Source of the DNA: a virus
IMG/VR virus record: IMGVR_UViG_3300017744_000066
Coordinates: 1 to 33,524 of that record
DNA: 33,524 nt
Direction: 5' to 3' (one strand)
The notes under the pieces are model-generated. The model ran no database searches, was not told the origin of the DNA, and worked only from the letters and a program-made list of their open reading frames with translations. Positions 431 through 31,060 of the stretch are shown in pieces. Position 1 is the first letter of the stretch; each line of letters starts with the position of its first letter. A program made the position numbers and the translations under genes.

Positions 431-461
431 TTAATATAACGCACCGAAAAAATGATTTGTA
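431..461 (-). promoter_or_regulatory. Two-part phage promoter motif, copy 1 (scaffold gene)
   Basis: On the minus strand TACAAA (461-456) is followed after 14 bases by CGTTATATTA (441-432). The same pair with 13-14-base spacing occurs at five other places in the genome, mostly just before genes. This copy sits about 35 bases upstream of the scaffold start at 397. The promoter role is inferred from recurrence and position. Confidence 0.6.
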
Positions 462-463
462 TT

Positions 464-613
464 TTAATTTGGAATTTTTGTGATAGAACCAATACCTTGT
501 GCTTGATAGGAACCATCACAGCACTTTCTACTGTATCTTATACCATCTTTACATAGACAACCACGTTTGCCGCTTTTTGGACTGCTGTAACGTCCGTTAT
601 TAGATGATTTCAT
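464..613 (-). CDS. Cys-rich 49-residue miniprotein between protease and scaffold
   Basis: The ATG at 613 overlaps the stop of the protease gene as ATGA, and the gene ends at 464. The protein is basic and rich in Gly, Ser and Cys. It contains GCLCKDGIRYSRKCCDG, with a CxC and a CC pair, and ends in QAQGIGSITKIPN. I recall similar Cys-rich miniproteins in head regions of flavobacterial phages, but I know no function. The paired cysteines suggest metal binding or disulphide cross-linking in the virion. The tight overlap with the protease means the two are translated together. The scaffold gene's promoter motif begins only 3 bases after this stop. Confidence 0.7.
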   Translation of the reverse strand: MKSSNNGRYSSPKSGKRGCLCKDGIRYSRKCCDGSYQAQGIGSITKIPN

Positions 614-1515
614 TTAAAAGTTTTCATTTTATTTATCGCCCAATTAATACCACTTGTACCTCCCCAAGCATCCCACATAATACCACCACAACCTTCGCTA
701 TATGGAACATCTTTATTTTGTTGTTGTCTTTTAAAACTAGCCATTCTGCCTATTGTTTCACGACTGATGTTTTTTTTTTCAGCAAGTTGTCTTGCTCTAG
801 TCCAACCAACTCTAGTTCCACATTTAGAATTGTTTTCTTCTTTATACTTTATAGCTTTTTTTGCATTGTTACTTGCAGATTGTGGATAATCGTTATATGT
901 TTCAAAAGTATATCTTACCAAATCTTGTTTTATTTTCAATAGTTTTTTTCCTGCTTCTATTTCTTGTGATAATTCGTCTTTTGTTTTTTTTTTAGGTCGT
1001 TCTGCTTTGTCAGCAAAGTATCCTTCAATACTAAATCCTTTTACCAATCCTGTTTTGACGTATTCATTCCATATTTCGTCATTGTAAACTTTTACAGAAC
1101 CAACCCAAGAACCTAATGGCAAATCCATACCATACAATGCTGTTTTATCTTGTTCTTTATTTTCTACAATCCAAGATTCTACAAGTGAAACGCCATTTAT
1201 TTTCTCAAAGTGTTCGTATGTAGAATTGTTTTGGTTTCCATTTGACAGATATAATTCAGATGCTTTGCGGACTGTGTCCTTTGTAAAATATATATAGTAT
1301 TCTGTATCCCCATCTTTCCTGTAGATTGGTTTATTAGGCACAAGTATAGCACCCATTAATAACCTTTTTTCTGCATCTACTTCTGCAAACTTATATTCTT
1401 TATTTTTAGATAATGCCAAAAAGTTTTCTTCAATAGCAGGGTTTTCTACTAAACTAATCGCATCAATGCCACTATTTTCGTCTAGTTCGTCAATTACTAA
1501 TTCAACTATTTTCAT
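610..1515 (-). CDS. Prohead serine protease, XkdF-like (Peptidase_S78_2 type)
   Basis: This 301-residue protein has an XkdF-type protease domain at about residues 50-175. Recognisable blocks are AILVPNKPIYRKDG, YYIYFTKDTVRKASELYL, STYEHF (His candidate), VSLVESWIVEN (Ser candidate) and KGFSIEGYF. The expected role is cleavage of scaffold and capsid precursors during head maturation. A separate C-terminal domain (about 200-301) carries YPQSASNNAKKAIKYKEEN, CGTRVGW, IGRMASF and GCGGIMWDAWGG. I have seen this extra domain in Bacteroidetes phage head proteins but do not know its function. The start at 1515 sits only 6 bases from a CGTTAT promoter motif, so the mRNA may be leaderless. The adjacent scaffold gene supports the assignment. 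Confidence 0.85.
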   Translation of the reverse strand: MKIVELVIDELDENSGIDAISLVENPAIEENFLALSKNKEYKFAEVDAEKRLLMGAILVPNKPIYRKDGDTEYYIYFTKDTVRKASELYLSNGNQNNSTYEHFEKINGVSLVESWIVENKEQDKTALYGMDLPLGSWVGSVKVYNDEIWNEYVKTGLVKGFSIEGYFADKAERPKKKTKDELSQEIEAGKKLLKIKQDLVRYTFETYNDYPQSASNNAKKAIKYKEENNSKCGTRVGWTRARQLAEKKNISRETIGRMASFKRQQQNKDVPYSEGCGGIMWDAWGGTSGINWAINKMKTFK

Positions 1516-1547
1516 ACTATTATAACGTTTTAGTTTTTTAATTTGTA
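1516..1547 (-). promoter_or_regulatory. Two-part phage promoter motif, copy 2 (protease gene)
   Basis: On the minus strand TACAAA (1547-1542), a 14-base spacer, then CGTTATAATA (1527-1518) directly before GT and the protease ATG at 1515. It occupies the whole 33-base gap after the tape measure gene. If CGTTATAATA acts as the -10 region, transcription would start at or within a few bases of the ATG. Confidence 0.65.
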
Positions 1548-1548
1548 T

Positions 1549-3420
1549 TTATATAGACGCATTTTCTACTATATTTCGATCTAATGCTTGTGCGCTTGTT
1601 ACATCTCCACTTGTTACAAATGCTTTTACAGGCTTCTGTTCATTTTCTCCCAATGCTGTTGCTAATTGATTTTCTGGTGCTTCACCAACTATATTAAATG
1701 CAGGGGGTGCTGATGCAGGTGCTCCACCACGACTACCACCGCCACCACCTTTTGCGCCTGCAGGTGTTTTGGTGCCAACAATTTTTTTAACTGTAGCTAA
1801 TCCTGATGCCAATATAGTTCCTGCACTCACAATTTTTTCAATAGATGCGAATGGTTGTGGTAAAGTAGAGGGTGTTTTTAAAACTTCTGTAAATCCTAAA
1901 TATGAATTTATTGTTGCTTGTGCTATTGCAGCAGCTTTTCCTGCAGCACTATTTTCACCCAACAGTTGTGCAATACCACCTAGTGCATCAGCAGCTAATC
2001 CTAGCTTTTGTTTTTGTAATAATATACTAGATGCTAATTCTTGTTCATCATTTGCTAATTGTTGTCCTTTTATTTGATTATTGAAATCTTGTATTTCTAA
2101 TCCTTTTTCTTGTTGGAAATCTAACAACTGTTGTTCAGCATCTTGCCTTGCTTGTGTTCCTTCGCCTAATCTTTCAATCTGTGCTTGTAGCCTTTCTGTT
2201 TCAAGATCATTTTCTTGTTGAGCAATATCACGTAAGGCTTGTAATTTTTCAAGTTCATCTTCTATTTCTTCTGCATTAAATTGTTTTTTAGCTATTAATC
2301 TTGCATTCTCTGCTTCTGATTTACTATTTATTAATTCAATTTCCTCTAGTTCTAATCCCTCACGATTAACTTTTTGTTCTGATTCAAAACCTGCAATGCT
2401 TTCTTTAACATCTAAAATGTTTTTTTCAGCTTCTATTAAAGCAGTTTTATTAGCTATTAAGTTAGGATTGGCTGCAAGTTCTGCTTGTGCTAATTCTAAT
2501 GCTTTTTGTGCATTTGCTAATTGAAGTGAAGATTGTTCATCAAGTATATTTTTTAATTTATTATTTGCTGCTATTCTATCATCTATTGATGCTGTAACAT
2601 CATCTCTGATTTGCCTTTGCCTTTCTGCTGCAAGTTGATATTTAAATTGTAATTTATCATTTTCTGCTAATGCTAATTCCGTTTCATTTTTTAATTGTTG
2701 TATTCTTTCTTGATTAGCTAGTTCTTGCGTTGTAGATATTTTAGATACGTTTTCCACAGCTTTTGTAGTAAAGTCGCCTAATTCCTTTCCTGTTTGAATA
2801 AAACCCTTACCGATGCCTACAACATTATCAACTAGACCACCTGCAGCACCAGCAACCTTTTCATCAACCCTATCAATGTCTGCTTGTAATTCTTTTATTT
2901 TATCAGCATCTTGACCACCTAAAAAAGATTTTTCCCAAGCAAGTTGCGCCCTTAATAATCCTGTTTGTACACCAAAGATTGAAGTCTTTAAAAGATTAAC
3001 AGGCACCATAACAGAATTTTTAACAATATCCCCCAAAGCTGTAAATTCACTACTTGCATCTATAACACCATCAATAACTTTTGTAAACACAGCAGATACA
3101 GTTCCAAACGCAACACCTAATCCATCTACAATGGTTTGATTTTGCATTAATATTTCTGTAAACTTTTCAAATATCTTTAATCCTAGACCTGCAATAAATG
3201 CCTTTGCTGCTAATCCTGCACCTTTAAAACCTTTGCCTACACCCTTAACTGTTTTGCCTAGTTTTGCTAAACCTTTATTTCCTTTTTGGTTGGTTTCATT
3301 TATAGCATTTAAAGATTCTTGGGTTTCATCCTTAAAATCTTCCATTTGATCTGTAAGTTTGCCAATCGCTTTTGTTGCACTTTGCACATCTATATTTAAG
3401 CGGATATTTTCTTCGGTCAT
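1549..3420 (-). CDS. Tail tape measure protein
   Basis: This 623-residue protein is the tail length ruler, threaded through the tube and ejected with the DNA. The N-terminus is a Lys/Gly-rich amphipathic region (KGLAKLGKTVKGVGKGFKG). Hydrophobic segments follow at about residues 70-160, then a long Glu/Gln/Ala-rich coiled coil (about 230-460). Next comes an Ala-rich helix (AAGKAAAIAQATINSYLGF) and a Gly-rich hinge. The C-terminal block PVKAFVTSGDVTSAQALDRN is one I associate with flavobacterial phage tape measures. At roughly 0.15 nm per residue the tail would be near 90 nm. The start overlaps the stop of the preceding 46-residue gene as ATGA. It is the last tail gene before the head cluster. 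Confidence 0.85.
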   Translation of the reverse strand: MTEENIRLNIDVQSATKAIGKLTDQMEDFKDETQESLNAINETNQKGNKGLAKLGKTVKGVGKGFKGAGLAAKAFIAGLGLKIFEKFTEILMQNQTIVDGLGVAFGTVSAVFTKVIDGVIDASSEFTALGDIVKNSVMVPVNLLKTSIFGVQTGLLRAQLAWEKSFLGGQDADKIKELQADIDRVDEKVAGAAGGLVDNVVGIGKGFIQTGKELGDFTTKAVENVSKISTTQELANQERIQQLKNETELALAENDKLQFKYQLAAERQRQIRDDVTASIDDRIAANNKLKNILDEQSSLQLANAQKALELAQAELAANPNLIANKTALIEAEKNILDVKESIAGFESEQKVNREGLELEEIELINSKSEAENARLIAKKQFNAEEIEDELEKLQALRDIAQQENDLETERLQAQIERLGEGTQARQDAEQQLLDFQQEKGLEIQDFNNQIKGQQLANDEQELASSILLQKQKLGLAADALGGIAQLLGENSAAGKAAAIAQATINSYLGFTEVLKTPSTLPQPFASIEKIVSAGTILASGLATVKKIVGTKTPAGAKGGGGGSRGGAPASAPPAFNIVGEAPENQLATALGENEQKPVKAFVTSGDVTSAQALDRNIVENASI

Positions 3421-3557
3421 TTTTTTAGTTTTAAACTGTTCTTCACATCTGCAAAACTGATAGGTAATTTATATTTACCTAATGCTTGATCAATGTTGTC
3501 GCTTCGTATGTCTTGTTCTTTTGCTAGTTCTAGCAATGTTAAAATATTATCTATCAT
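3417..3557 (-). CDS. Small protein preceding the tape measure (46 aa)
   Basis: The gene starts at 3557 (MIDNILTLLELAKEQDIRS), sharing the A of the preceding TAA as TAATG, and its stop overlaps the tape-measure ATG as ATGA. The protein is helical and charged, ending NSLKLKK, with no membrane segment or known motif. Its position directly before the tape measure is where tail assembly chaperones are found in other siphophages. At 46 residues it is much shorter than gpG/gpT-type chaperones, so the role is only a suggestion. Overlaps on both sides make it very likely to be a real, co-translated gene. Confidence 0.65.
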   Translation of the reverse strand: MIDNILTLLELAKEQDIRSDNIDQALGKYKLPISFADVKNSLKLKK

Positions 3558-6500
3558 TAGTAAAATGTTTTTACATTAGTAACTATCCCATCTATTACTG
3601 AACCTGAAACACCTTGTCCGGGTGCATAACATCCATTTTGATTAGAATCATAAAAAGCATAAAATCCATCTGGTGCATAAAGCAATTTATTACTTTCTGT
3701 ATTCCTTTGATATACACCAAATTGATCGTCTGGTATTTGGTATAATCCGTATCCTTCTTTTAATGGTCTATAATTTTGACAAACAAAATCTGTTTCGCTA
3801 CTAGCACCTTGATTGTAAAATCCTAATTTTGTTAATTTTTTTCCATTAGGTAAAGTTGAACCTGTAGCTGAAAAACTTCTAGCATACGATTCAGCAGTTG
3901 CACGATCAGTTGCGTGATAACCACAAGCGTCTAATTCCCTATCGAATTGTTTTTGTGATTCTTTGTCATATTGGTATCTAGTATCGTGTACTGCAATACC
4001 TGTAAAATCTACGCCTTGAAATCTTTGTTGAAAACTTACAGCATCACCCTCAATAAGCACCGGCACAACTAAAGAATATAAAACACCACCACTGATTCCT
4101 TTTACATCAAAGAAAGTTCCATCACCATTTTTAATTCTAAATGTTGAATTACCGGTAGCAAAAGCACTTCCGTCTGGTTTCATCACGTGATAACTATATA
4201 CAGATGTTGTGGTTGTAAAACTAATACTTGGCGTTGCTTGTTCAAATAATACAGAACTTAACATTTCACCACTAGCTACATCAAACGATGTATCATTTGT
4301 AGTTTTACCATAGAATCTATAATAAATTGTATCGCCTGCAGATAATCCTGTAATTTGGTATTTTATATTTCCAGATAATGTGTTTTTATTTTGTGGTGTA
4401 GTATCGTATTTTATATTAGTTGCTGATCCTGTTTTTAATGTTGTTATACTATCAGAACTTAAATGCGATTTTGTAGTTGAATAGAAAAATCCATATTCAT
4501 CTATTTGCGATGTCGAACCAACCTTGCCTAATGTAGTAACTGTAAATGAAATAGTAACCACAGAACTTGAAGGTGCAGTTGTAAGGTATGTTAATGTTGG
4601 TGGTGTAACTGTTAATGCTTCATCACTAATAACTACTTGTGGAATATTAGGCACGCTTACATCTTCTGGCACCACTTCTGTTGTGCTAATTACTTCTAAT
4701 CCTTCAAAGTTGTTAAATTTATCTACTGTAATAATACCATTGTCTGCAAAAAATTCGTCTGAATCTGCACTTAAATTTGTGTCAGTTGAAACAGGTAAAA
4801 ACTTGCTTGGTATTATTGGCGTAATTTCTGTTGTTGTGTTTATTAGTTCTAAATCACTTAACAGCGTTTCAAAGTTTGTTACAATTTTGTTAATCTTATA
4901 TGTCTTATTGAAGATAACTAGCTTGTCTGATAGTGTTAAATTTTGTAAAATAGAAACAGGTAAATACGCTTTCACTTTTGTTAATCTTCTGCGTTTATCA
5001 AATACATCTTCTATATAGCTTTTATAATATTTTTCAAATAAAGATTTGTTAAATGGGATGCCTTCATATTCGTTTGTTTCAGAATTAAAATTTATGTTAT
5101 CGCTTGAATCATCACTTAATGAATTACTTAAATACAAAGAATTTGATGGCACAAAATAAGATGTAACTTCTGATACATTGTTTGCAGAATCTAAAACGCC
5201 AATACTTGTGCCTGAATTTAAAACAGGGTAAAACAACAATGGCTCTGGTAGGTATGCACCTTGTTTATCGTCTGCACTCCAACCCCATTGTACAGCAGTA
5301 TTAGCATTACCTGATACATTTTTTAATCTTTCAAACATAAAATGATCAAAGGGTAATTTAATTTCGTAAACTTGACCATCAAATTTTTCTCCCGCATTAT
5401 AATTAAGTGATCCCCATTTGCGATTAAATATTTGTTCAAAATTAGATGCCATAAAACTTTTATCACCTTTGTAACTAAAGTTGATTTGTTTGTATGGCAA
5501 CACACTATCAACCATTGATGATTCTTTGTCAATAAATTCTGTTACATCAGTGAACGTTGTATTAGTGTCGTAAAAATCATCTAGCGTTTGTATCTTAATA
5601 GTTTTGTTGTCTTGTATAAAAGCTGTTAAATTGAACATTTTAAAAATGCCGGTCAGGAAGTCTATAATTTTTATTTTTGGTAGCTGTTCAGTAATTTGTA
5701 CTTTTTTATTTGTTATTGAAATTGCTGTGCCTGTGAAACCAATAGAAAAAAATATGTTTCGAACTCTAGGACTAATTTCAAAAGTTGCTACCGTGTCTGA
5801 TTCAACTGCAAAAGTAAAAGTGCCTTTGGCTAGTGGCACGTAATCTGCATTACCTTTTTTGCCTTTTCCTTGACCTTGCGTTGGGAATGTGTCACCTACT
5901 AAATCTTTATATTCTAATTCAAGTTCGCCATCTTTGAACAAGTAAACATTATATTTTGCAGTTTGATTTGTTGTTTTTACACTAAATCTTATTTCACTGA
6001 AAGAACTTAAATTTATAAAAGAATTTTTATTTAAAGTAAAAAAATTACTATCTGGTGAACTATTAAAAACCCTTTGATAATTAGTGAATTTTATTTGTTC
6101 TGGTTGATCACTAAACATTGAACCAACTTTGTTGTGTAACCACAAAAATAAATTATAATAACTAGCATTACTAGTAGCAAAAAAATCTTTACTAAACGAA
6201 AAACCTTGTTGAGTAAAAAATCCCCTTTCTATTGCTTTTATAATAGCGTGTACTCTAATCGCAGGTTTTAGTTGATCAAATTCAACACCTTTATTTTGAC
6301 CTGCAGCATAGGCAATATTTGCTAATGTGTCTGTGTTTAATGTTGAACTACTAGAATCATAAATCAATCTTTTAGTATGTGTCATTAAAGGAACCAATAA
6401 AACCTCTGGAAACACAACACCATTCATAGTTTTAGATTGTGCTGTATTTAACATTCCTTTTATGCTAGCATCTGTATATTCAAACTCAAGATCTGTTAAT

Positions 6501-7875: not shown

Positions 7876-7880
7876 ATTAA

Positions 7881-10427: not shown

Positions 10428-11099
10428 TTATAGCTTCATATCTTGTAACATCCCCTTTAGCGAGAGAATAGATTGATTGATGCCATCCCCATTTTCTAGA
10501 AAAATTTGAGATTCCGTCAACTCTGGTTTCGCTTTCGCTTTCTCCAAAAATTTCGTCATACCTATCGACAAGTCCATCCCTAAATGATAAAAAAAAATCA
10601 GTGAACTAAAGGCAACATCTAAAGGCATCAGTTTCATTGCTTCGTGATAGGCATCGCCCTTGTAATCTTCAATAAGGTATAATCCTTTTTTCTTCAGTTT
10701 AATAGGTCTATATAACACAGCCATTGCTTTGTGCATATTATCCCAATTAGAAATGTTTGTGTCTAGGTCTACATATTCTCCGAATGTCATATCGTCTAAC
10801 TTTGGAATGAATCCAAATGTTGTATCGCCTAGTTTAAATGATCTAATCAATTCAGGCTTTTCAGATAATAGTTTTTCTATTTTTAAAATTATCTTTTTAA
10901 CATCAGTCAACCTCAACTTCATTCCATCTTGGTAATTTATACCTGTAAATATTTCTAGTGTTTTTAATAAATAAAAGACATCAGAATTTTTATTCTGTTC
11001 TTTCATTTTCTCAAATTGCTCTATGATATTTAAGTATGCAGAATATTGAGTAATTGTAATCTCGCTTAATTGATCTGGTATCTGTACTTTAAGTTCCAT
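10428..11099 (-). CDS. Possible tail assembly chaperone-like protein (223 aa)
   Basis: I choose the ATG at 11099 (MELKVQIPDQLSEITITQY). It is the start nearest the CGTTAT promoter motif, and the open frame upstream of it runs over a terminator. The protein is mainly helical: QYSAYLNIIEQFEKMKEQN, MKLRLTDVKKIILKIEKLL, then a beta pair (GDTTFGFIPKLDDMTFGEYVDLD) and helices to LKGMLQDMKL. The FIP.LD.MTFGEYVDLD block is one I recall in Bacteroidetes phages, usually among tail genes, where such helical proteins are often called tail assembly chaperones. No enzyme motif is visible. A terminator upstream and its own promoter make it the first gene of a tail transcription unit. Confidence 0.55.
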   Translation of the reverse strand: MELKVQIPDQLSEITITQYSAYLNIIEQFEKMKEQNKNSDVFYLLKTLEIFTGINYQDGMKLRLTDVKKIILKIEKLLSEKPELIRSFKLGDTTFGFIPKLDDMTFGEYVDLDTNISNWDNMHKAMAVLYRPIKLKKKGLYLIEDYKGDAYHEAMKLMPLDVAFSSLIFFYHLGMDLSIGMTKFLEKAKAKPELTESQIFLENGDGINQSILSLKGMLQDMKL

Positions 11100-11100: not shown

Positions 11101-11130
11101 ATAATATAACGTATGTATTTAATATTTGTG
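11101..11130 (-). promoter_or_regulatory. Two-part phage promoter motif, copy 3 (tail unit)
   Basis: On the minus strand CACAAA (11130-11125), a 13-base spacer, then CGTTATATTA (11111-11102), followed by TT and the ATG at 11099. It lies immediately downstream of a terminator (11132-11160), as expected for a fresh transcription start. A leaderless or near-leaderless mRNA is predicted. Confidence 0.65.
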
Positions 11131-11131: not shown

Positions 11132-11160
11132 AAAAAAAAAGGGTACCTGTAAAGATACCC
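11132..11160 (-). terminator. Intrinsic terminator after the nuclease-like gene
   Basis: The minus strand reads GGGTATC, a 6-7-base loop, GGTACCC and then nine T residues, a classic hairpin plus U-tract. It ends the unit containing the nuclease-like gene 11192-11668. Confidence 0.85.
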
Positions 11161-11668: not shown

Positions 11669-11814
11669 TATTTTCCCTGTATAGCAACTTGTCGCATTCT
11701 AGCTTGTTGAAGTGTAGCGAATCTATCGCCTACAATCCTACCACATAATGGTATAAGTTCTGTAAAGTAGTCGTCATTGAAAGTGATAGTCTTTGTGCCT
11801 TTGCGATTTTGCAT
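11668..11814 (-). CDS. Small basic protein (48 aa) after terminase
   Basis: The gene runs from ATG 11814 to a TAA that overlaps the ATG of the nuclease-like gene (TAATG). The product, MQNRKGTKTITFNDDYFTEL..., is basic with a helical C-terminus (FATLQQARMRQVAIQGK). No known motif is seen. A nuclease-like partner translated from the same mRNA suggests a linked function such as a DNA-binding helper, but this is a guess. Confidence 0.6.
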   Translation of the reverse strand: MQNRKGTKTITFNDDYFTELIPLCGRIVGDRFATLQQARMRQVAIQGK

Positions 11815-11862
11815 TTTTTCTATTGTTTTTATAAATATAATAAATTTTTTAATCTAATAAAA

Positions 11863-11917
11863 GGCGTGTATGCTGATAGTGTACTTTCGAACTTTGTCAA
11901 CAATTATAAGTCACGCC
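11863..11917 (-). terminator. Long hairpin with weak U-tract between two small genes
   Basis: On the minus strand GGCGTG (11917-11912) can pair perfectly with CACGCC (11868-11863) across a 43-base interior, followed by TTTTATT. The interior carries a palindromic TTCGAA. The long loop and impure U-tract make this a weak terminator, or possibly another structured RNA. Confidence 0.35.
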
Positions 11918-11921
11918 AATA

Positions 11922-12095
11922 TTATAATTGGATGTTGTCTAGTTCATCAATGATCTTGTCAATCTGATGAAACGTGCCTGTGATTCCAATTGTAGGTGTG
12001 CTTTTTAAAAGTCTTAGCATACCTTTGACTTTGCCTACTGTATAAGCATTATCACTTCTTTTTTCTATTGTATCTAGTTGTTCTTGTAAATCCAT
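11922..12095 (-). CDS. Small helical protein after large terminase (57 aa)
   Basis: The frame runs from ATG 12095 to TAA 11922. The product begins MDLQEQLDTIEKRSDNAYTV and continues VGKVKGMLRLLKSTPTIG, ending in IDKIIDELDNIQL. Two amphipathic helices flank a short Gly/Thr-rich turn, suggesting a small helical bundle that could dimerise. No family is recognised. It has its own host-like promoter (12118-12147) and is separated from the next gene by a possible hairpin, so it may be a stand-alone early gene. Confidence 0.6.
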   Translation of the reverse strand: MDLQEQLDTIEKRSDNAYTVGKVKGMLRLLKSTPTIGITGTFHQIDKIIDELDNIQL

Positions 12096-12117
12096 AATTT
12101 TGTTTTTAATTATAGAT

Positions 12118-12147
12118 CAAATATAATAAAAAATATTTATAAACAAA
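12118..12147 (-). promoter_or_regulatory. Bacteroidetes-type promoter (TTTG-N18-TATATTTG)
   Basis: On the minus strand TTTG (12147-12144) is followed after 18 bases by TATATTTG (12125-12118). This matches the known Bacteroidetes -33/-7 consensus (TTTG / TAnnTTTG). It lies 22 bases upstream of the 57-residue gene, in the only AT-rich gap after large terminase. Confidence 0.6.
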
Positions 12148-12163
12148 AAAATAATAACTTTTT

Positions 12164-13336
12164 TTATCTGATAGCGTATTTACCATAGTTTGGTCTGGAT
12201 AATTTGCTGTAAGTTCCATAGCGTATTGCGTCAATACTATGATTGTTTGTGTCAATAGGAACATTTAATACGTTACCATTTTTATCTTCTTTCCATTTAT
12301 AGTTTCTAAATTCTTTAATTGTGTTTAGGCTATCTTTTGTAACAAACAGTTTGTATCGTTTTAAAGTATCTATCCCTATGTTTATAGAATCCCTGCCTTT
12401 TGTTGCAGGTTTCATATTCCAACCAAATCTGTATATTTCTTCTATTGATTTTGGTTCTGCGCTGTCGGCATAAATTTCATCACGTCTATTTAATCCTATT
12501 CTTTCTAGTTCTTTTGCGATATCTTGGTTGGTCATTCCTGTTCTGTAAAGATATTCTTTGATGTATAAATTGGTGTCGTGTTTCCAAACACCTATCAACG
12601 TAGTTGGATCGTTTGTATATCCAAAGTCCATACCATAAGACAAAAACTTAGCTTCTTGTGGAACGCTATCACATACGTGTGAGTTAAATATAAGGCTTCT
12701 ACCGGTTCCAATTTCACCCAACCCATATATACGCCAATAATTTTCATCCGTGTCTTTTAAACGCCTTATTTCATCTTTTATAGATTCTTCTAAAAATGGA
12801 TTATCATTAAAAGTTGTAATATAAAAATCAGCATCTTCCCTTACTTTTACTTTATCGTATATCCAATGGAATTCATCTGAAGGATTATAGTCTATTATTA
12901 TTTTTTCTTTAGTTCTAAATATTAATTGTTGCCAATCTTCAAACGTAAGATCATTCGCTTCGTTAATAAACAGTAAATCCCTTTTACGACCACGCACTTT
13001 TCTTGGTTCATCTAATGATATAAACTCAACCAAACAATTATAAAGCATATATTCTGAACTGCTTTTGTTGTGTTTTTCTTCGCTATACATTCCTTGACTT
13101 TTTATAATATCAAAGAAATCACGCATTACAGTTGCACGTAATGCAGGAAATGTTTTTCGGCAAATAGTAATTACTTTATTATGATTGCTAGGTGCATAAA
13201 AAAATATTAACCAAATCAGTATGTTATAAGTTTTACCTGATCTAGTTCCACCTTGTTCGATGGTGATTTTTTTATCTGAATATAAAAGATGATCACAGAC
13301 TACATTAGTCGCTATCGTTGTTTCTAATGATCTCAA
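12164..13336 (-). CDS. terL: Terminase large subunit (PBSX-like)
   Basis: This 390-residue packaging motor has an N-terminal ATPase with Walker A GGTRSGKT (29-36), an adenine-side RKTFPALRATV block (60-70) and Walker B LLFINEA (121-127, catalytic Glu126). The C-terminal RNase H-fold nuclease shows MDFGYTNDPT (Asp237), IYADSAEPKSI and HSIDAIRYG, which supply the metal-binding acidic residues. It hydrolyses ATP to pump DNA into the prohead and cuts the concatemer. The start at 13336 overlaps the small subunit gene by 32 bases. The 390-residue length is close to the usual size. The identification is firm, and the nearest named group appears to be PBSX-type. Confidence 0.95.
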   Translation of the reverse strand: MRSLETTIATNVVCDHLLYSDKKITIEQGGTRSGKTYNILIWLIFFYAPSNHNKVITICRKTFPALRATVMRDFFDIIKSQGMYSEEKHNKSSSEYMLYNCLVEFISLDEPRKVRGRKRDLLFINEANDLTFEDWQQLIFRTKEKIIIDYNPSDEFHWIYDKVKVREDADFYITTFNDNPFLEESIKDEIRRLKDTDENYWRIYGLGEIGTGRSLIFNSHVCDSVPQEAKFLSYGMDFGYTNDPTTLIGVWKHDTNLYIKEYLYRTGMTNQDIAKELERIGLNRRDEIYADSAEPKSIEEIYRFGWNMKPATKGRDSINIGIDTLKRYKLFVTKDSLNTIKEFRNYKWKEDKNGNVLNVPIDTNNHSIDAIRYGTYSKLSRPNYGKYAIR

Positions 13337-13656: not shown

Positions 13657-14373
13657 TTATACTCCTTTTCTTGGTGATCTCATTTTTAAGAAATTTTTGT
13701 TGTTTTGTAATTTTACTACTTTTTTTCCCCATTTTTTCAAAAGAACTGAATAAGCCTGCATTTCTACATCTTTTGTTCTATAAGAAACACAACCACCTTC
13801 ATTTGTTAAATGAATTACATCAATTCCATATTTCATACATCTTAAAGCACCTGAATATTTTGCAATATTTTGCATTGAGTAATCATAATCTTCTTTTACT
13901 TTTAATCTTTCATCAAATCTTAAATCATTTTTTATTATACCAATAATATTTGCACCTATAACTCCTTGTGTGCTGAAAGGGGTATATTCTCTATAAAATT
14001 TGTAATCTGCTGCTAAAGCAAATCCCCAAACTTTTAAACCCCATCCATCACATAAATGAAACTGGTTATCTAATATTTTATGTATTTTGTCTTGATCTAT
14101 AAATGTTTGTTTTTTTCCTTTTTCAAACATATGGAAACTCAATGCATCATCATCAACTTGCACGTGCCAATCGTCATTAATATTGTTTAAAATCCAATTT
14201 CTTGTTGAAGTTATTCCCTTTACTTGATCTGGTACTGCTATAACATTTTTGTGATAATCTTTATAATTTTTTTCTTCACTTTCTGGACAAATAATAGTAC
14301 TTTCTTTAAATAATTTGTGACTTGTTACTTTTCCTGCTCTACCCTTTGAAGGAATATATACTTTATAATCCAT
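13657..14373 (-). CDS. TET-associated-type glycosyltransferase (GT-A fold, TAGT-like)
   Basis: This 238-residue protein begins MDYKVYIPSKGRAGKVTSHK. Visible blocks are IPSKGRAGK (7-15), the nucleotide-sugar site GITSTRNW (53-60) and a DxD-type VQVDDD (71-76) that would bind metal and UDP-sugar. A later segment reads FDERLKVKEDYDYSM (acceptor/catalytic region). This pattern matches the TET-associated glycosyltransferase family, known from phages in which modified DNA bases are glycosylated. No TET/JBP oxygenase, base hydroxymethylase or DNA methylase is visible in this genome, so the acceptor could be host-made or non-DNA. The gene starts at the stop of the ParB-like gene (TAATG overlap), a pairing reported for this family. 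Confidence 0.7.
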   Translation of the reverse strand: MDYKVYIPSKGRAGKVTSHKLFKESTIICPESEEKNYKDYHKNVIAVPDQVKGITSTRNWILNNINDDWHVQVDDDALSFHMFEKGKKQTFIDQDKIHKILDNQFHLCDGWGLKVWGFALAADYKFYREYTPFSTQGVIGANIIGIIKNDLRFDERLKVKEDYDYSMQNIAKYSGALRCMKYGIDVIHLTNEGGCVSYRTKDVEMQAYSVLLKKWGKKVVKLQNNKNFLKMRSPRKGV

Positions 14374-14969
14374 TATTTTTTGTTTATAGCTTCAATTAAA
14401 AGTTTTCCAGATTTTACTCTGCCAATTCCTTTTTGCATATATGTGTCTGTATATCCTGCTTTTGCAACCGTTACAATATTAAATATTTCTTTCACTACTT
14501 GCCAATCTAATTGATTATCAAAAGTAAAAACCAAATAATTATGTTCTTCTAAAATTTCTTCTGTAATTTCAATTTCTGGTTCTTCACCATTTTCAATTTG
14601 TAATTTCTCATTTAATATAGGTAAATCAATTCCCCAATCAATTAACTTTTTATTATCCCATTCATTTGCAAGTATATCCCAATCCCATTCCCCAAAATTA
14701 CTATTGTCTTTTATTACAAATTGTTTTTTCTGTTCATCACTCCAACCCTCTGCTATTATAACGTATAATTCTTTTAATCCTAATTCTTGGCTTGCTTTAA
14801 ATCGCATATTGCCACCAAGTATCATCATATTTTCATCTACAACAATAGGTCTTTTCTCTAGCATTTCTGGAAATTCTTTAATGCTTTGTACTAGTTTTTT
14901 AAACTTATTATCCTTAATCAACCTAGGATTGTCAGGATTTGTTTTTATTTCAGTGATTTTGACTTTCAT
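14373..14969 (-). CDS. ParB-like nuclease-domain protein
   Basis: This 198-residue protein has an N-terminal ParB/Srx-type domain: NPDNPR (11-16), KRPIVVDENMMILGGNMRFKAS (39-60; GGNMR is the phosphate-binding signature) and IAEGWSDEQKKQFVIKDN. The middle segment GEWDWDILANEW is common in phage ParB-like proteins. The C-terminal part (about 140-198) with HNYLVFTFDNQLDWQVVKEI is a separate small domain. Family members bind or hydrolyse nucleotides and act near DNA-modifying enzymes. This one is translationally coupled to the glycosyltransferase. It overlaps the DnaA-like gene by 20 bases. It is not a partition system, as no ParA is present. Confidence 0.75.
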   Translation of the reverse strand: MKVKITEIKTNPDNPRLIKDNKFKKLVQSIKEFPEMLEKRPIVVDENMMILGGNMRFKASQELGLKELYVIIAEGWSDEQKKQFVIKDNSNFGEWDWDILANEWDNKKLIDWGIDLPILNEKLQIENGEEPEIEITEEILEEHNYLVFTFDNQLDWQVVKEIFNIVTVAKAGYTDTYMQKGIGRVKSGKLLIEAINKK

Positions 14970-18645: not shown

Positions 18646-18791
18646 AGGTCTATTTTTATATGGTTTAATTTTTCTTTTCTTTTATCACATCCGCAAGATT
18701 TGTAACCTAACAGATCAATAACAATTTTTTCAACAAGCCATTTAATGCCTGTGTATTTAAATATCTTTTCTAGTACGTTTCCTAATTTCAT
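18636..18791 (-). CDS. Small CGC-motif protein (51 aa)
   Basis: The frame MKLGNVLEKIFKYTGIKWLV...KIVIDLLGYKSCGCDKRKEKLN runs from ATG 18791 to a TAG at 18636. An amphipathic helix precedes SCGCDKRKEKLN. I recall small proteins with the same (K)SCGCDxRKEKLN end in phages of Bacteroidetes, of unknown function. It overlaps the sigma-like gene by 35 bases and the 68-residue gene by 10. Dense overlap and the recognisable end make this a real gene. Confidence 0.7.
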   Translation of the reverse strand: MKLGNVLEKIFKYTGIKWLVEKIVIDLLGYKSCGCDKRKEKLNHIKIDLWN

Positions 18792-19362
18792 ATTTCTTTT
18801 TAATTTGTTTTTTAATAATGTTTATGGTATTGCGTAAACTCCAATACGTAATGTTTGTATCCTTTGATAATTTTGAAACTTGTACATCATCATAAAATAC
18901 TTCTTTGAAAATTCTTCTTAAATAATATTTTTCTAGTTCTTCTTTTGTATAATTCACATCTTGCAAATCTTCATTTTCTAGTAAATCTAAATACAGTTGA
19001 TCATTGTACCATTCTTCAATAGATATTTTTTTATCCAAATTTATATTGTAATCTTCTAAATTTTCATTACTGACTTCTGTTTCCATATCACCTAAAATTG
19101 ATTCATTTATTTCAACCATTTTTACGTTTTTTAATTTACGATGGTAATCTGTGTACAAACTTCTTAGGGTTAAATAAATAAAATAGACGTTAACATCATC
19201 CCCATATTTTATATTGTTGTTGTTTTTTTTTAGATATGTATCAATCTTAATATACATTTCTTGTGTTATATCTTCGCACAAATCTTTTGGACATCCCATT
19301 TTTAATAAATAACGTATCCATAATTTATGTTTTTTATATAATAATTCTAAAAATCCCACCAA
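18757..19362 (-). CDS. Sigma-70-family (ECF-like) sigma factor
   Basis: This is about 201 residues from a TTG at 19362 (or GTG at 19359). Region 2 is visible: MGCPKDLCEDITQEMYIKID (22-41), matching the (E)DIxQExF core that binds RNA polymerase, then YFIYLTLRSLYTDYHRKLK (60-78), the -10-reading and melting segment. A region 4-like helix-turn-helix (153-190, FYDDVQVSKLSKDTNITYWS) follows and would read a -35 element. It would direct host RNA polymerase to phage promoters. A copy of the two-part CGTTAT motif lies upstream of this operon, so autoregulation is possible. Matching of the two is inferred. The non-ATG start overlapping the 56-residue gene may keep its level low. Confidence 0.75.
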   Translation of the reverse strand: MVGFLELLYKKHKLWIRYLLKMGCPKDLCEDITQEMYIKIDTYLKKNNNNIKYGDDVNVYFIYLTLRSLYTDYHRKLKNVKMVEINESILGDMETEVSNENLEDYNINLDKKISIEEWYNDQLYLDLLENEDLQDVNYTKEELEKYYLRRIFKEVFYDDVQVSKLSKDTNITYWSLRNTINIIKKQIKKKYEIRKRTRKDI

Positions 19363-19517
19363 GTAATATGTATGCCAAAGAATACAAACATTATAGTTAA
19401 CTGATGATAAAAATCATCATCATCAACGTTTGGTTGATCTGGTTCTAGATTTGGATTGTAATATAAAACACCTAATGCACAACCATAAATCGGTATTAAT
19501 TGCACGTCTAATCCCAT
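19347..19517 (-). CDS. Small protein upstream of the sigma factor (56 aa)
   Basis: ATG 19517 to TAG 19347 encodes MGLDVQLIPIYGCALGVLYY..., an acidic middle (four consecutive Asp residues) and a hydrophobic C-terminus (LTIMFVFFGIHITWWDF). The last 16 bases overlap the sigma-factor gene, so translation of this gene may feed ribosomes to the weak TTG/GTG start of the sigma factor. No family is recognised. A membrane-proximal C-terminus is possible. Confidence 0.6.
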   Translation of the reverse strand: MGLDVQLIPIYGCALGVLYYNPNLEPDQPNVDDDDFYHQLTIMFVFFGIHITWWDF

Positions 19518-19557: not shown

Positions 19558-19588
19558 ATATAATAACGCTAGAATGGTAGGTTTTGTG
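19558..19588 (-). promoter_or_regulatory. Two-part phage promoter motif, copy 4 (sigma-factor operon)
   Basis: On the minus strand CACAAA (19588-19583), a 14-base spacer, then CGTTATTATA (19568-19559). The left part overlaps the end of the helicase gene. The 56-residue gene and the sigma-like factor follow, about 40 bases downstream. It places the phage sigma gene in the same regulatory class as the late genes. Confidence 0.6.
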
Positions 19589-20484: not shown

Positions 20485-20492
20485 CAAATATA
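20485..20492 (-). promoter_or_regulatory. TATATTTG -7 box before the helicase gene
   Basis: The minus strand reads TATATTTG, 4 bases before the helicase ATG, the same layout as before the 17981 gene. No clear TTTG -33 element is found at the usual spacing, and the box overlaps the U-tract of the upstream terminator. It is therefore only a candidate. Confidence 0.35.
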
Positions 20493-21827: not shown

Positions 21828-21903
21828 TCCTGTTATATATATATATATTATTATATTTTTATTATATTATATATTTATATTGTTATATATATAATAGCAA
21901 ATA
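21828..21903. other. AT-only low-complexity tract (candidate origin or promoter region)
   Basis: About 75 bases are almost purely A and T with long TA runs, broken by a few G or C. It lies between the lysis genes and the NinG-like gene, at the boundary of lysis and replication modules. Such tracts melt easily and can serve as origins or promoters. No iterons or clear DnaA boxes are seen beside it. The function is open. Confidence 0.4.
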
Positions 21904-22388: not shown

Positions 22389-22411
22389 CTATTAAAGTAT
22401 TGCCAACTGTG

Positions 22412-23324: not shown

Positions 23325-23325
23325 A

Positions 23326-26941: not shown

Positions 26942-26943
26942 AA

Positions 26944-27801
26944 TTATGGTGTTGGATCAGATGTATAAGTTGCAATGGTATAATTAAAAACAGCATTGGC
27001 TGAATCGTCTATACATTCAATTTGTAAAAGATTTGTGGTGCTTCCGTCATAATCTACACCACCAATTTTATTAAATGTTTCGCTAGTTCCTGCGTCACTA
27101 TCTAACGTAAGCGTATAAGCACCTGTGAGATTATGTATTGTTATTATTTGTCCTTTTTTGTAATTGGTAAAATCAAATTCTTTGGCACCGGTACAAGCTG
27201 ATTGCATCCTAAAAATAGTTCCTGCTGACCAATCTACGGAAGTAGCACCACTTGTGCCTGTAATTGTAACTGATGCAGTATATCTATTTTCTAGTTTGTC
27301 GTGTGTAACATTATTGTCAGTTATACTTGCTGTGACAACTGCGTTACTTGCAAGTTGATCTGCGCCAACAGCATCGTCAGCAATCATTGCTTGTTCTACT
27401 GCATCATTTGCTATTGTAACTGCGCCTGTATTTGCTAGGGTTACATCACCACTTAAAGTTGCTGCAGTCATTCCTGTGCCATCGCCAATTAATATTTGAG
27501 TATCTGTTAACGCTTTTTCTGTAAGCACTCCAGAACTATTAGCATCACGAACTAAAAGGCTATTTGCTGCAACGTTTTGCATTTTAGCAAAGGTTACCCC
27601 CGCATCATTTAAAGATATTGTTACAGCACCTGTGGCTTGATCTCTAGCAATCGGTGCAGTAGCTGTTATACTTCCAACATCCCCTGCATCATCTGTATAC
27701 AATTCTGTAAAGTTATCATTTACTTTATCGAAAGCTGCACGAAGTTGATCGCCTGTGCCATCGTTAGCAGTTGTTCCAATATTTATAGTCTGTTTAGCCA
27801 T
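26944..27801 (-). CDS. Tail fibre protein (285 aa)
   Basis: The N-terminus INIGTTANDGTGDQLRAAFD with DNFTELYTD is widespread in tail fibres of aquatic phages and probably forms the attachment helix. The middle is a beta-repeat shaft with AVTIANDAVEQAMIADDAVG-type steps. The C-terminus (about 175-280) is a beta-rich tip (YTLTLDSDAG, LLQIECIDDSANAVFNYTI). The repetitive Asp/Ala/Thr composition indicates a trimeric fibre. It lies 2 bases from the fibre-assembly-like gene and 10 from the 55-residue gene. Confidence 0.7.
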   Translation of the reverse strand: MAKQTINIGTTANDGTGDQLRAAFDKVNDNFTELYTDDAGDVGSITATAPIARDQATGAVTISLNDAGVTFAKMQNVAANSLLVRDANSSGVLTEKALTDTQILIGDGTGMTAATLSGDVTLANTGAVTIANDAVEQAMIADDAVGADQLASNAVVTASITDNNVTHDKLENRYTASVTITGTSGATSVDWSAGTIFRMQSACTGAKEFDFTNYKKGQIITIHNLTGAYTLTLDSDAGTSETFNKIGGVDYDGSTTNLLQIECIDDSANAVFNYTIATYTSDPTP

Positions 27802-27811
27802 TGTTTAAAAT

Positions 27812-27979
27812 TTAATATTCTGTTGCATCGGAAGTATACGATGTATCATCTGATGTTTCTTTTGTCGTGTCGGCAGTAAAAAAACTCCCATCTGCATCAA
27901 ATGGATATATTGCACCCCATCCGTTGTTTTCGTTTACGCTACCAAAATAGCTTTCGTGATATATATCTCCAAATGCCAT
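27812..27979 (-). CDS. Small acidic virion-like protein (55 aa)
   Basis: ATG 27979 (MAFGDIYHESYFGSVNENNG) to TAA 27812. The protein is aromatic and Gly-rich at first (NGWGAIYPFDADGSFF) and then Thr/Ser/Asp-rich. The MAFG.IY..S.(F/W)G-type start is one I recall in small fibre-region genes of marine phages. It has its own CGTTAT promoter motif directly upstream and is the first gene of the fibre unit. Confidence 0.6.
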   Translation of the reverse strand: MAFGDIYHESYFGSVNENNGWGAIYPFDADGSFFTADTTKETSDDTSYTSDATEY

Positions 27980-27982
27980 CTT

Positions 27983-28012
27983 TTATAATAACGTTATTTT
28001 TTTTCTTTTGTG
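27983..28012 (-). promoter_or_regulatory. Two-part phage promoter motif, copy 5 (fibre unit)
   Basis: On the minus strand CACAAA (28012-28007), a 13-base spacer, then CGTTATTATA (27993-27984), 4 bases before the ATG at 27979. It sits in the 94-base gap after the connector gene. The rest of that gap is AT-rich with no other structure seen. Confidence 0.65.
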
Positions 28013-28073
28013 CATTTTTTTTTGACGTAAGACATTAATTTTGTTAGATTTTCGCTTTTAATTTTATACGTAG

Positions 28074-28586
28074 TTATAGAACCCATCCTAAAAAGTTGTT
28101 TGATTTATCTGGATACATATCATCATTATTGTTTGTGTAATATTCGCTAAATTTTGAAGAAGCATTAAACGACATATATTGCAAAAACCTTTCAGTATAA
28201 AAATCTGCAAAATGTCTGTGTCTTTGTACTAAATAATCTACTTCATCTTTGCTTGGTGTTTCAACATTTTCTGATCTGTGTTTAAATAAACCACCATTTT
28301 TTAATTCGTATGCTGCAAAAGGCAAATAATCTACCATTGCGTAGTGAATTAACATAGGTTGTATGTAATCATTTACTAATGCCAAATAATCCCCTGTTAA
28401 ACTAGCGCCACCTGTACCTAAAATATCTGTGCTAATTTTGTCATATAATTTACTGCCTAAATAATTCTGTATGTGCATTTCCTGCGCAATCTTTATAAAG
28501 CCAATAAATTTATCCGTATCAACATTGCCATTTAATATGGTGTTTTTTACTAGGTCGCTACGTTTTATAAATAGTGCTACTGCCAT
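28074..28586 (-). CDS. Head-tail connector-like protein (170 aa)
   Basis: A helical protein: ALFIKRSDLVKNTILNGNVD, FIGFIKIAQEMHIQNYLGSK, then IQPMLIHYAMVDYLPFAAYE and a Tyr/Asn-rich C-terminus (YYTNNNDDMYPDKSNNFLGW). The KIAQ..HIQ.(Y/L)LG(S/T)KLYDKI block is one I associate with neck/adaptor proteins encoded next to portals in Bacteroidetes phages (DUF6712-like). It shares one base with the portal stop. Function is inferred from position and fold class. Confidence 0.6.
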   Translation of the reverse strand: MAVALFIKRSDLVKNTILNGNVDTDKFIGFIKIAQEMHIQNYLGSKLYDKISTDILGTGGASLTGDYLALVNDYIQPMLIHYAMVDYLPFAAYELKNGGLFKHRSENVETPSKDEVDYLVQRHRHFADFYTERFLQYMSFNASSKFSEYYTNNNDDMYPDKSNNFLGWVL

Positions 28587-30676
28587 TATCTTTTTCTTTT
28601 ATATCCTTTAGTAGGTGTGTCTATTGGTCTTTTTGCTACAATTGCAGGTTCTTGTTTTTTTGTAGGCGGTTTAATACCTTCTTTTTGTTTTTCACTTCTG
28701 TATATAGGTTTTGCAAGTGGACTATTCGGATCAGGCTTCACATCATTTTTAAATAGATAAGTTTTTCTAATCCAATAGTGATGACAATTAGCGCCGCCTT
28801 TGTGTAAAAATATGTTATAAGATGTTTCACCACTTGCTGCAAGTTCACCGTTTGCTGTGCTATTTTTGTCTAAATCTTCTTTGCGATATATTTTTTTAGC
28901 TGCAACCATTCTTCTGCAAAAATCTCTAGAATTATTTTTAACTGCTAGTGGTGCGTATTGATATCTAACAATAAATTTTTTACCATCTTTTGTTTCACCA
29001 TCTAATGAACTTTTTGTTGTAGCTTTATTTGGTACTACTGATGCAAGCGATAACAAAGCATCTAGTGTTTCTTCATTTTCATAATCAACTGCACGTTCAT
29101 CAAACAACTCCCATCCATCACTAAACAGCTTTTCTTCATCACTACCATTTTCTTCTAAAGAATTTAATAAAGCCATTCTTATTTGTTCTGCAGTTTCTAT
29201 TGGTATGCAATTAGGAACTTTTTTACCATTTTTAGTTTTCATACCATACTGTTCATATCCCTTCCAACACGGATCATCAGCATCTTTTAAATCTTGTTTG
29301 CTGTTTTTTATTGGAACGCAATTAGGAACTTTTTTTCCGTTCTTCATTTTGAAACCAATCATTTCATATCCTTTGTAGCAAGGTGCCTTTAAATCGTGTG
29401 ATTCGCAAGGCATATACCATTCCTGTCCATCTAGTTCGTGCGTGTGATAACCACCACAACCCACTTCTTTTGATACTAATTCTGCTTCTTCTTTTGTGTC
29501 ATACGCAATGCGACCATCTATAATTTTTGATGCTAATGCTAGTTTTTGTCCTGTTTCTTCTTCGACTTGTTCTTTAGTAACAGCATTTTCTAGATCAGCA
29601 AATTCTAATGGCTGTAATGTTTTAAAATATAACTTTAAACTAATTTCATTAAATGCTAATATTTTATCAAAGGCATCTATTAGTAAATCTTGAAATGGTC
29701 TAATAACTGTATTATCCATTAAATTACTAGCAGTTTTTAATTCGTCTGCATTGTTGCCTAGTCCTGTAGAATCTTTAATACCTAAAAGCATCGGTGATAC
29801 AATCCTATGGCTTACCATAATTTTACGCATAGATTCATCAGATAAAAATTGATATTGATTATGCGCATCTGATAATTGTACAGGCTCTATTGATGCAGCT
29901 TGATTTTCGTTATCGTTAAATGCTAATATAAATTTGCCTGCGTTTGATGTACCACTAAATTTTTCTTGTATTCTATGTTCTATCATTTGCCTTTCTTCTT
30001 CAGTAGGCGTTCCATTATTAAAATTGATTAGCATACTAGGTGCCAGTCCATTCATAATATTGTTTAAATGATAATTTGCTACTTCTTCTTCTAGTTCACT
30101 ATATTGTAAGCCACCTTGATAATCAACAGGCGAGTAATAATAGAATCCTGTTCTATATGGCTTGACGTATAATATCTCAAGTCCTTCATTACTGAAACCG
30201 AATGCCGGTATGCGTTTTAATTTTTCTTGTGGCTTAATTTTCTCCCAATTATGATGATAGTAATATGCTTCTATTTCACCATCGTCATTACATTTTTCTG
30301 CACGCAAAGTTTCAACAGGGAAATGTTCTATCTGCACAATCTTTGATCTATCTTTTGAATAGATAACTTGCATTGAACATTGTCCTAGTAATTTTAAATC
30401 GTGTGCTAGTTTTCTTACGCAATCATTATTGAACAATCCCTTCATTTGAGCATATTGCTCTGGTTGTTTATTTGAATCCGTAGCGTCTAATCCTTGACCA
30501 AATATTAATTGCGATATACCATTTACAGCAGCATTGTTTGTAGGACTACCATTATGTCTGTCAATTAAATATTGGAAATAATTATTATCCTCACCATACG
30601 CAACGTAATCTTTGTTTTTTAATTCAATGATTTCTGGTGTGCTGTAATTGCTTAATTGTACTATTTTTACGTTCAT
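28586..30676 (-). CDS. Portal protein with extended C-terminal minor-head-like region
   Basis: This 696-residue protein has a portal core at about residues 1-400: AYGEDNNYFQYLIDRH, NAAVNGISQLIFG, VYSKDRS-like strand and the long helix before MVSHRIVSPMLLGIKDSTG. It forms the dodecameric DNA gate. The C-terminal 300 residues are extra. They hold two 24-residue Cys repeats (433-456 and 470-493, C(Y/W)KGYE...NGKKVPNC(V/I)PI), then a region with RDFCRRMVAAKKIYRKEDL and GGANCHHYWIRKTYL (585-641). The last region resembles the Cys/His end of Mu F-like minor head proteins. A fused minor head function is inferred. The start overlaps the upstream tail gene as ATGA. Confidence 0.85.
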   Translation of the reverse strand: MNVKIVQLSNYSTPEIIELKNKDYVAYGEDNNYFQYLIDRHNGSPTNNAAVNGISQLIFGQGLDATDSNKQPEQYAQMKGLFNNDCVRKLAHDLKLLGQCSMQVIYSKDRSKIVQIEHFPVETLRAEKCNDDGEIEAYYYHHNWEKIKPQEKLKRIPAFGFSNEGLEILYVKPYRTGFYYYSPVDYQGGLQYSELEEEVANYHLNNIMNGLAPSMLINFNNGTPTEEERQMIEHRIQEKFSGTSNAGKFILAFNDNENQAASIEPVQLSDAHNQYQFLSDESMRKIMVSHRIVSPMLLGIKDSTGLGNNADELKTASNLMDNTVIRPFQDLLIDAFDKILAFNEISLKLYFKTLQPLEFADLENAVTKEQVEEETGQKLALASKIIDGRIAYDTKEEAELVSKEVGCGGYHTHELDGQEWYMPCESHDLKAPCYKGYEMIGFKMKNGKKVPNCVPIKNSKQDLKDADDPCWKGYEQYGMKTKNGKKVPNCIPIETAEQIRMALLNSLEENGSDEEKLFSDGWELFDERAVDYENEETLDALLSLASVVPNKATTKSSLDGETKDGKKFIVRYQYAPLAVKNNSRDFCRRMVAAKKIYRKEDLDKNSTANGELAASGETSYNIFLHKGGANCHHYWIRKTYLFKNDVKPDPNSPLAKPIYRSEKQKEGIKPPTKKQEPAIVAKRPIDTPTKGYKRKR
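29198..29380 (-). repeat. Tandem Cys-motif repeat in the portal gene
   Basis: Two units (29309-29380 and 29198-29269), 111 bases apart, encode C(Y/W)KGYE-x4-(F/M)K-x-KNGKKVPNC(V/I)PI. Each has one Cys at either end. The linker is acidic. The period is 37 residues. Confidence 0.8.
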
Positions 30677-31029
30677 ACTGTTATATAATCATCATCATAC
30701 GTATTCTGTGTTGTGTACTCTCCACTATTAACTGTATAATAATTGTTGTTTGCTTGATTCACAGTTTGATCTGTGCAAAATATTTTGTCTTTATAAATTA
30801 TTTTAGCTGATGAATTTTTAATTGTCATATCATAAAAAAATCCTTCTGTTAATACAGGACTAAATGTAACATTAAAAGTTAAATCATCCTCAACTGTACT
30901 TGCTGTTATGTTATAATTTGTGCTAGTATTTGTTGTATCATCTCTCACAGTCAAAGTTCCGCTTGTAATATATTCACGTGGTATTACTTTTATTGTTTGT
31001 GCTGATGCAGTTGTTTTTAAAACTTTCAT
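30673..31029 (-). CDS. Small tail/neck structural protein (118 aa)
   Basis: I choose ATG 31029 (MKVLKTTASAQTIKVIPREY), because upstream of it lie a promoter motif and the tail-tube terminator. The protein is all-beta: SGTLTVRDDTTNTSTNYNIT, VTFSPVLTEGFFYDMTIKN, IIYKDKIFCTDQTVNQ and a Tyr/Asn-rich end. I recall the same IYKDKIFCTDQ block in flavobacterial phage structural genes, but no function. With the portal gene it forms the first pair of a unit driven by the adjacent CGTTAT motif. Confidence 0.65.
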   Translation of the reverse strand: MKVLKTTASAQTIKVIPREYITSGTLTVRDDTTNTSTNYNITASTVEDDLTFNVTFSPVLTEGFFYDMTIKNSSAKIIYKDKIFCTDQTVNQANNNYYTVNSGEYTTQNTYDDDYITV

Positions 31030-31030
31030 A

Positions 31031-31060
31031 CTAATATAACGCAAGATTTTTATTTTTTGC
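31031..31060 (-). promoter_or_regulatory. Two-part phage promoter motif, copy 6 (portal unit)
   Basis: On the minus strand GCAAA (31060-31056), a 14-base spacer, then CGTTATATTA (31041-31032), then GT and the ATG at 31029. It directly follows the tail-tube terminator. The -35-like box is the most divergent of the six (GCAAA for ACAAA). Confidence 0.6.

Follow-up and report, generated by a model that had tools for sequence, protein, structure and literature searches.

A conserved two-part late-promoter class in an uncultured marine phage, very probably read by the phage's own sigma factor

In Salmonella phage 7-11, a phage-encoded sigma factor (SaPh711_gp47) steers host RNA polymerase to bipartite late promoters. 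About eight of these, GTAAtg-16-aCTA, lie before late genes, and early genes use the host primary sigma factor (PMC8948821). Phage phiEco32 likewise has its own sigma factor, gp36, with six promoters before middle and late genes. As summarised in PMC8948821, these promoters have a single element, tAATGTAtA, with no -35 block, the sigma factor lacks region 4, and transcripts start 6-8 bp downstream of the element. Here we examine IMG/VR record IMGVR_UViG_3300017744_000066, a marine virus; all 33,524 nucleotides (nt) of it were analysed and are called the window. Its minus strand carries six copies of a two-part motif and the gene for a sigma factor that resembles the extracytoplasmic function (ECF) group. 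We read the six sites as phage late promoters recognised by that sigma factor, with a probability, judged from sequence comparisons, of roughly 0.85.

The likeness to 7-11 is one of organisation. The 7-11 consensus is unrelated, its host belongs to another phylum, and its function has been shown experimentally; unlike those of 7-11, the promoters here mostly abut an ATG. Unlike phiEco32, the window has two promoter blocks and a region-4-like helix-turn-helix in its sigma factor. The host is probably a Flavobacteria-like bacterium. Primary-sigma promoters of Bacteroidota (TTTG/TAnnTTTG; PMC6847099) are also two-part and belong to the same presumed hosts, but have a different -7 box. Flavobacterial ECF promoters (motif SM6, PMC9723704) differ in serving host genes, type IX secretion and others, and unlike SM6 the long phage form, CGTTATATA-NNT-ATG, is nearly absent from cellular genomes. 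Systems of this kind are known from 7-11 and phiEco32. What is new here is the group of hosts, a large family of uncultured phages, the cognate consensus and an architecture in which the motif abuts the start codon. The six motif copies and the two adjoining terminators are as follows.

431..461, minus strand: motif copy 1, TACAAA-N14-CGTTATATTA; ATG of a scaffold-like gene 44 nt on
1516..1547, minus strand: motif copy 2, ACAAA-N14-CGTTATAATAGT, abutting the protease ATG at 1515
11101..11130, minus strand: motif copy 3, ACAAA-N13-CGTTATATTATT, abutting the ATG at 11099, with an intrinsic terminator directly upstream
11141..11160, minus strand: intrinsic terminator immediately before copy 3, GGGTATC-loop-GGTACCC plus T9
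19558..19588, minus strand: motif copy 4, which precedes the small-ORF/sigma operon and overlaps the helicase 3' end; lineage-specific
27983..28012, minus strand: motif copy 5, ACAAA-N13-CGTTATTATAAAAG, abutting the ATG (27979) of a 55-aa open reading frame (ORF) ahead of the tail-fibre genes
31031..31060, minus strand: motif copy 6, GCAAA-N14-CGTTATATTAGT, abutting the ATG at 31029, with a terminator directly upstream; heads the portal unit
31071..31090, minus strand: terminator-like hairpin, GGGTAGC..GTTACCC plus T8, upstream of copy 6, read by eye

An initial annotation of the window, made without database searches, had proposed these six copies, and all are present at the positions it gave, on the minus strand. 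Their order is shared, and the A's and CGTTAT lie 13-14 nt apart, provided that the -35-like block is taken to be CAAA with one or two extra bases. Two copies directly follow terminators, as it had said (11160-11141, and 31090-31071 by eye). Its remark that the copies sit in rare gaps stands for five of the six, which are wholly non-coding; only 11 of the 31 bases of 19558-19588 fall in a gap. Over the whole window, all six matches to CAAA-N13/15-CGTTAT-WW-TA are on the gene strand, and the opposite strand has none. A third-order Markov model of the window, simulated 300 times, gave a mean of 0.017 copies and at most 1, so that a chance origin is rejected. All six sites carry CGTTATWWTA and not the TAnnTTTG of the Bacteroidota primary-sigma -7 box, a difference the initial annotation had also seen. 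A TAnnTTnG form, TATATTAG, is embedded in the 31031 copy only. E. coli-type sigma-70 promoters were also sought in the window, and their matches did not rise above shuffle level.

In four of the six blocks the ATG follows within 0-3 nt (1515, 11099, 27979, 31029); at sites 431 and 19558 it lies 44 and 51 nt past the C of CGTTAT. This fixed distance from motif to ATG, a probably leaderless architecture, is a new observation that the initial annotation did not contain. Genes downstream of the copies encode a Peptidase_S78_2 head protease, the portal, a T4 gp9/10-like protein, fibre and tape-measure-like tail proteins, and it is from these structural functions that we infer their late status. The ATG at 31029 opens a 118-aa gene that precedes the portal gene.

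The motif also stands before orthologous late genes in divergent relatives with the sigma gene, where the initial annotation had suggested looking for it. Copy 1 has counterparts before scaffold-like orthologs in L143 and L144, copy 2 before protease orthologs in six relatives (L139, L141, L147, L148, L120, L144), copy 5 before the same 55-aa gene in L013 and L041, and copy 6 before orthologs of the 118-aa gene in L076 and L103. The family-wide consensus, a conserved bipartite element, is approximately WMAAA-N13-15-TACGTTATATANNT-ATG. Hexamers were counted without supervision in the 20 nt before ATGs of contigs fetched by the sigma gene alone. CGTTAT was the most enriched G-containing hexamer (50 vs 8 expected, 37 loci), and in 29 cases the ATG lay exactly 12 nt from its C. 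Among 42 non-redundant regions (<80% alike) upstream of orthologs of the gene starting at 11099, 32 held CGTTAT, where permuted hexamers averaged 0.35. In 32/32 of these, an A-flanked A lies 16 nt before the C, and the ATG stands at +12 in 22. In 23 contigs of at least 30 kb, fetched as relatives bearing the sigma gene or the motif, CGTTATA-N3/9-ATG was found at 78 sites, of which 77 keep to a single strand within their contig. A motif repeated on the gene strand before structural genes, and unlike host promoters, is the pattern of promoters for a late sigma factor. Clearly, the sites form a real, conserved late-promoter class; comparison across these genomes makes it very probable that its reader is the ECF-like sigma factor encoded by the phage.

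The cultured Nonlabens phage P12024S has a matching six-copy motif, CAAA-N13/15-CGTTAAT-ATG (0.02 copies expected). All copies are at ATGs, and they precede structural and packaging genes; the -10 block is CGTTAAT there and CGTTAT here. Its gp33 (NC_018271) is homologous to the window sigma factor (20% identity in A1), and its sole annotation is that it contains Sigma-70 region 2. That record lists no promoter, and no description of promoters in P12024S-like phages was found in a literature search, subscription papers being outside its reach.

The sigma factor and its neighbour occupy the following positions.

18757..19362, minus strand: ECF-like sigma factor P0001, with a TTG or GTG start that overlaps the upstream small ORF
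19347..19517, minus strand: conserved 56-aa ORF that shares bases with the beginning of the sigma gene

The ECF-like identity first proposed for this gene is upheld, as profile and fold matches are nearly all to ECF sigma factors. P0001 matched NCBIfam TIGR02937 (sigma70-ECF) over positions 10-164 of 165 with E 5.9e-6, a match under the curated cut-off, and SigY with 3e-7; all remaining NCBIfam matches were sigma factors. Pfam Sigma70_r2, which marks region 2, was detected in 10 of 15 IMG/VR relatives (best 1.4e-5). A profile of the 15 relatives matched ECF SigE, SigW and other sigma factors in the PDB, with unrelated proteins weaker, and picked ordinary ECF sigma factors in three Bacteroidota genomes (Maribacter, Prevotellaceae). 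The AlphaFold model has a mean predicted local distance difference test (pLDDT) score of 80 and consists of two helical domains with a floppy, low-confidence linker. Three C-terminal helices (140-157, 162-169 and 173-198), predicted with high pLDDT, appear to form the helix-turn-helix of region 4. The top Foldseek matches in the PDB were two-domain ECF sigma factors, namely SigL (E 2e-4), SigE, RpoE, AlgU and SigH. Fold matches cover both domains of SigL, RpoE and AlgU, and also region 4 of E. coli sigma-E on its own (2h27). Family members are 159-212 aa long with two domains, in keeping with the ECF (group 4) plan of ~160-200 aa that has regions 2 and 4 only and neither region 3 nor region 1.1. 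The placement of P0001 among ECF sigma factors is well supported by these profiles and models, and core binding is predicted.

The family is large. Among the first 600 candidate stretches listed from IMG/VR, 532 were confirmed as sigma-family stretches, and tblastn over 50,697 phage records found the family only in P12024S/L. A single-sequence search of phage records with the window sigma factor gave nothing useful; an alignment was needed. A scan of genome contigs gave no cellular homologs with the phage-specific sigma patterns, and the sigma profile matched ordinary cellular ECF sigma factors with weak E-values only. Many ECF sigma genes, though not all, have an anti-sigma gene as neighbour. 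The 56-aa ORF adjoins the sigma gene in 46/46 relatives having both and is a candidate anti-sigma factor or translational-coupling partner. Tandem overlapping sigma-like paralogs are found in L086 and L103 (~10.0-11.1 kb), and a second sigma-like copy lies ~7 kb downstream in L016, L020 and L027. A motif match at the sigma gene in L012-L015 lies inside the coding region and was set aside.

The association of motif and sigma factor was examined reciprocally by scanning IMG/VR with the 17-nt TACGTTATATANNTATG, which holds the -10 block and the ATG and uses neither the sigma gene nor the -35 block. At least 120 stretches matched, and a control string with CGTTAT changed to GCTTAT matched 35 in all. 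Among the motif matches listed, 92% have an A-block at -18 to -14 (control 10%), in 93% the ATG opens an ORF (control 26%), and 36% have an upstream T-run (control 3%). The sigma factor is encoded in 16/20 of the listed motif records of at least 20 kb and in 0/20 control records of 19-172 kb (Fisher p=1.5e-7). The four sigma-less motif records (L194, L195, L224, L259) have no -35 block and open 1-21 codons, and were rejected as chance matches. Sigma-less controls were also sought with the terminase as anchor; among the contigs listed with at least ~9 kb upstream, all had the sigma gene. One 47.7-kb record, L257, has two sigma genes and identical pairs of promoter strings ~29 kb apart and may be a concatenated or chimeric contig.

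In the proposed mechanism, the phage sigma factor (18757-19362) would join the core of the host's RNA polymerase; contact with the (A/G/T)CAAA or TAAAA block would be made by its region 4, and the CGTTATATA block would be melted by its region 2. Early genes probably use Bacteroidota primary-sigma promoters; the early and replication genes, including the helicase and sigma unit, would be started by the host primary sigma factor at TAnnTTTG boxes. Once it has accumulated, the phage sigma factor would activate the units for head, portal, protease, tail and fibre. Transcription would start ~12 nt past the C, in most cases on the first base of the ATG, and wherever motif and ATG abut the mRNA would have no leader. 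In the host -7 box the first base is T-12 (PMC6847099); if the C is -12 in the same way, the A of the ATG is therefore +1. Host primary-sigma starts lie 4-5 nt past the -7 box (PMC6847099), and those of phiEco32 and 7-11 lie 6-9 nt from their element (PMC8948821). By this analogy the late mRNAs are probably leaderless or nearly so. In F. johnsoniae, 87% of probable host transcripts have leaders >10 nt (PMC6847099). We give even odds to the more specific proposal that in this uncultured Bacteroidota phage lineage an ECF-like sigma factor starts late transcription on the A of the AUG and so governs a leaderless regulon. If true, the late switch would alter both promoter choice and the mode of translation initiation in mostly leadered hosts. 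The bases at -1/-3 before the ATG were considered as a test of leaderlessness and, being weak, were left unused.

Several points weigh against recognition of the motif by the phage sigma factor. P0001 taken singly has no sequence-family match in Pfam, PHROG or PDB. Full-length template modelling scores are low (~0.33), because the two sigma domains are flexibly linked. A single phage lineage has inherited both sigma factor and motif, so that their co-occurrence is no independent proof, and the control contigs were chosen without taxonomic matching. Sequence shows the motif, how it is conserved, where it lies and that it occurs together with the sigma gene, and from these we infer the sigma-motif pairing, the start sites, the timing and the leaderless translation. 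Finally, a fresh-water clade of 45% GC has the sigma factor and lacks the CGTTAT motif. In this clade promoter specificity has possibly shifted; motif discovery there gave no clear replacement motif. Its members are L164, L177, L180-L183 and L187, and in L177, L180, L181 and L187 GGTTATTTTA-like text replaces CGTTAT before the ATG of the 223-aa gene.

The most durable alternative concerns the sigma operon, for which another element is relevant.

20485..20492, minus strand: TATATTTG, a -7 box like that of host sigma-A, with a terminator immediately before it; it heads the helicase/small-ORF/sigma unit

Copy 4 had initially been taken as autoregulatory. The motif is indeed present at 19558, but it is only the closest lineage, the window and L005-L009, that keeps CGTTAT before the 56-aa-ORF/sigma pair. 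Perhaps, then, the phage sigma factor reads only some copies, with the 19558 site a relic or a match by chance and the sigma operon driven by the host; we regard this as a tentative but serious contender, a little short of an even chance. In its favour, 20 of the 31 bases of this copy lie in the helicase ORF, the -35-like half encoding the last helicase residues, and TAnnTTAG or TAACTTCG, host-like boxes, stand at this place in 8/21 non-redundant regions, all from other, more distant lineages. The box at 20485, assigned by the host consensus (PMC6847099, PMC9723704), heads the unit in the same sense. Conversely, the 19558 motif is kept between the window and L008 despite 63% sigma identity, and it is kept in the very lineages whose host-like box has lost its final G, which would fit a switch to self-activation. 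The simplest cascade runs from host sigma-A to phage sigma factor to late genes, and judged from its conservation the 19558 copy is possibly a lineage-specific self-activating site.

It is improbable that the motif is read by an alternative (ECF) sigma factor of the host instead of the phage protein. F. psychrophilum motif SM6 does show that flavobacterial ECF promoters can have a CGT -10 box (PMC9723704), and in two Bacteroidales metagenome-assembled genomes (MAGs; L352, L355) the motif stands at the ATG of 387- and 300-aa ORFs with a signal-peptide-like start, possibly host ECF promoters of similar form. However, in 84,980 cellular genomes (257 billion bases) the bipartite motif was found in only 16 stretches, at least 12 of which do not place it at the ATG of any complete ORF as long as 50 aa, and this near-absence speaks against an ordinary host promoter. 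The phage contigs listed with the motif mostly encode their own sigma factor, and all P12024S copies have shifted jointly to CGTTAAT, as expected from one phage factor. Seven of the 16 cellular stretches are one repeat in a single Candidatus Ancillula MAG (L345-L346, L348, L353, L356-L358), mostly near contig ends and probably a repeated mobile element. Least probable is a translation-initiation or other post-transcriptional signal beside the start codon, which would suit the fixed ATG distance (mostly 12 nt from CGTTAT) and the lack of Shine-Dalgarno sequences in Bacteroidota (PMC6847099) but not a conserved block that reaches 30 bp upstream with promoter-like two-part spacing, its position directly after terminators (and T-runs), where a new transcript must begin, or the ATGs 44-51 nt away at 431 and 19558.

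A phage-specific late-promoter class read by the phage sigma factor, as the initial annotation had suggested, thus fits the sequence evidence best and is largely supported. It supplies a likely promoter for a large, nearly unannotated phage sigma family, by which late operons of uncultured phages would become readable from sequence. The pair is compact and possibly orthogonal, for use in Bacteroidota. A phage-driven shift of the host to leaderless late translation becomes testable, with Nonlabens phage P12024S as the cultured system.

Other features of the window are listed below.

610..1515, minus strand: head maturation protease, Peptidase_S78_2, downstream of motif copy 2
10428..11099, minus strand: 223-aa late gene, phrog_32199 (unknown), downstream of motif copy 3
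12164..13336, minus strand: terminase large subunit, an independent anchor for finding relatives
28586..30676, minus strand: portal protein; in the unit that motif copy 6 heads, this is the second gene

All assigned genes are on the minus strand, as are all six motif copies, and 7.2% of the window is non-coding. The termini carry an exact 123-bp direct repeat (1-123 = 33402-33524). This repeat makes it probable that the record represents a whole, circularly mapping genome (33,401 bp) and hence that the motif count of six is complete. Read across the circular junction, the scaffold-like gene has 238 aa. ParB-like and TET-associated glycosyltransferase genes adjoin at 13657-14969, a pair that suggests modified bases in the phage DNA. 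After the terminase gene, a 495-bp stretch (11669-12163) has no ORF of at least 60 aa, though shorter ORFs are probable, and within it a host-like promoter, TTG-TATATTTG, lies at 12118.
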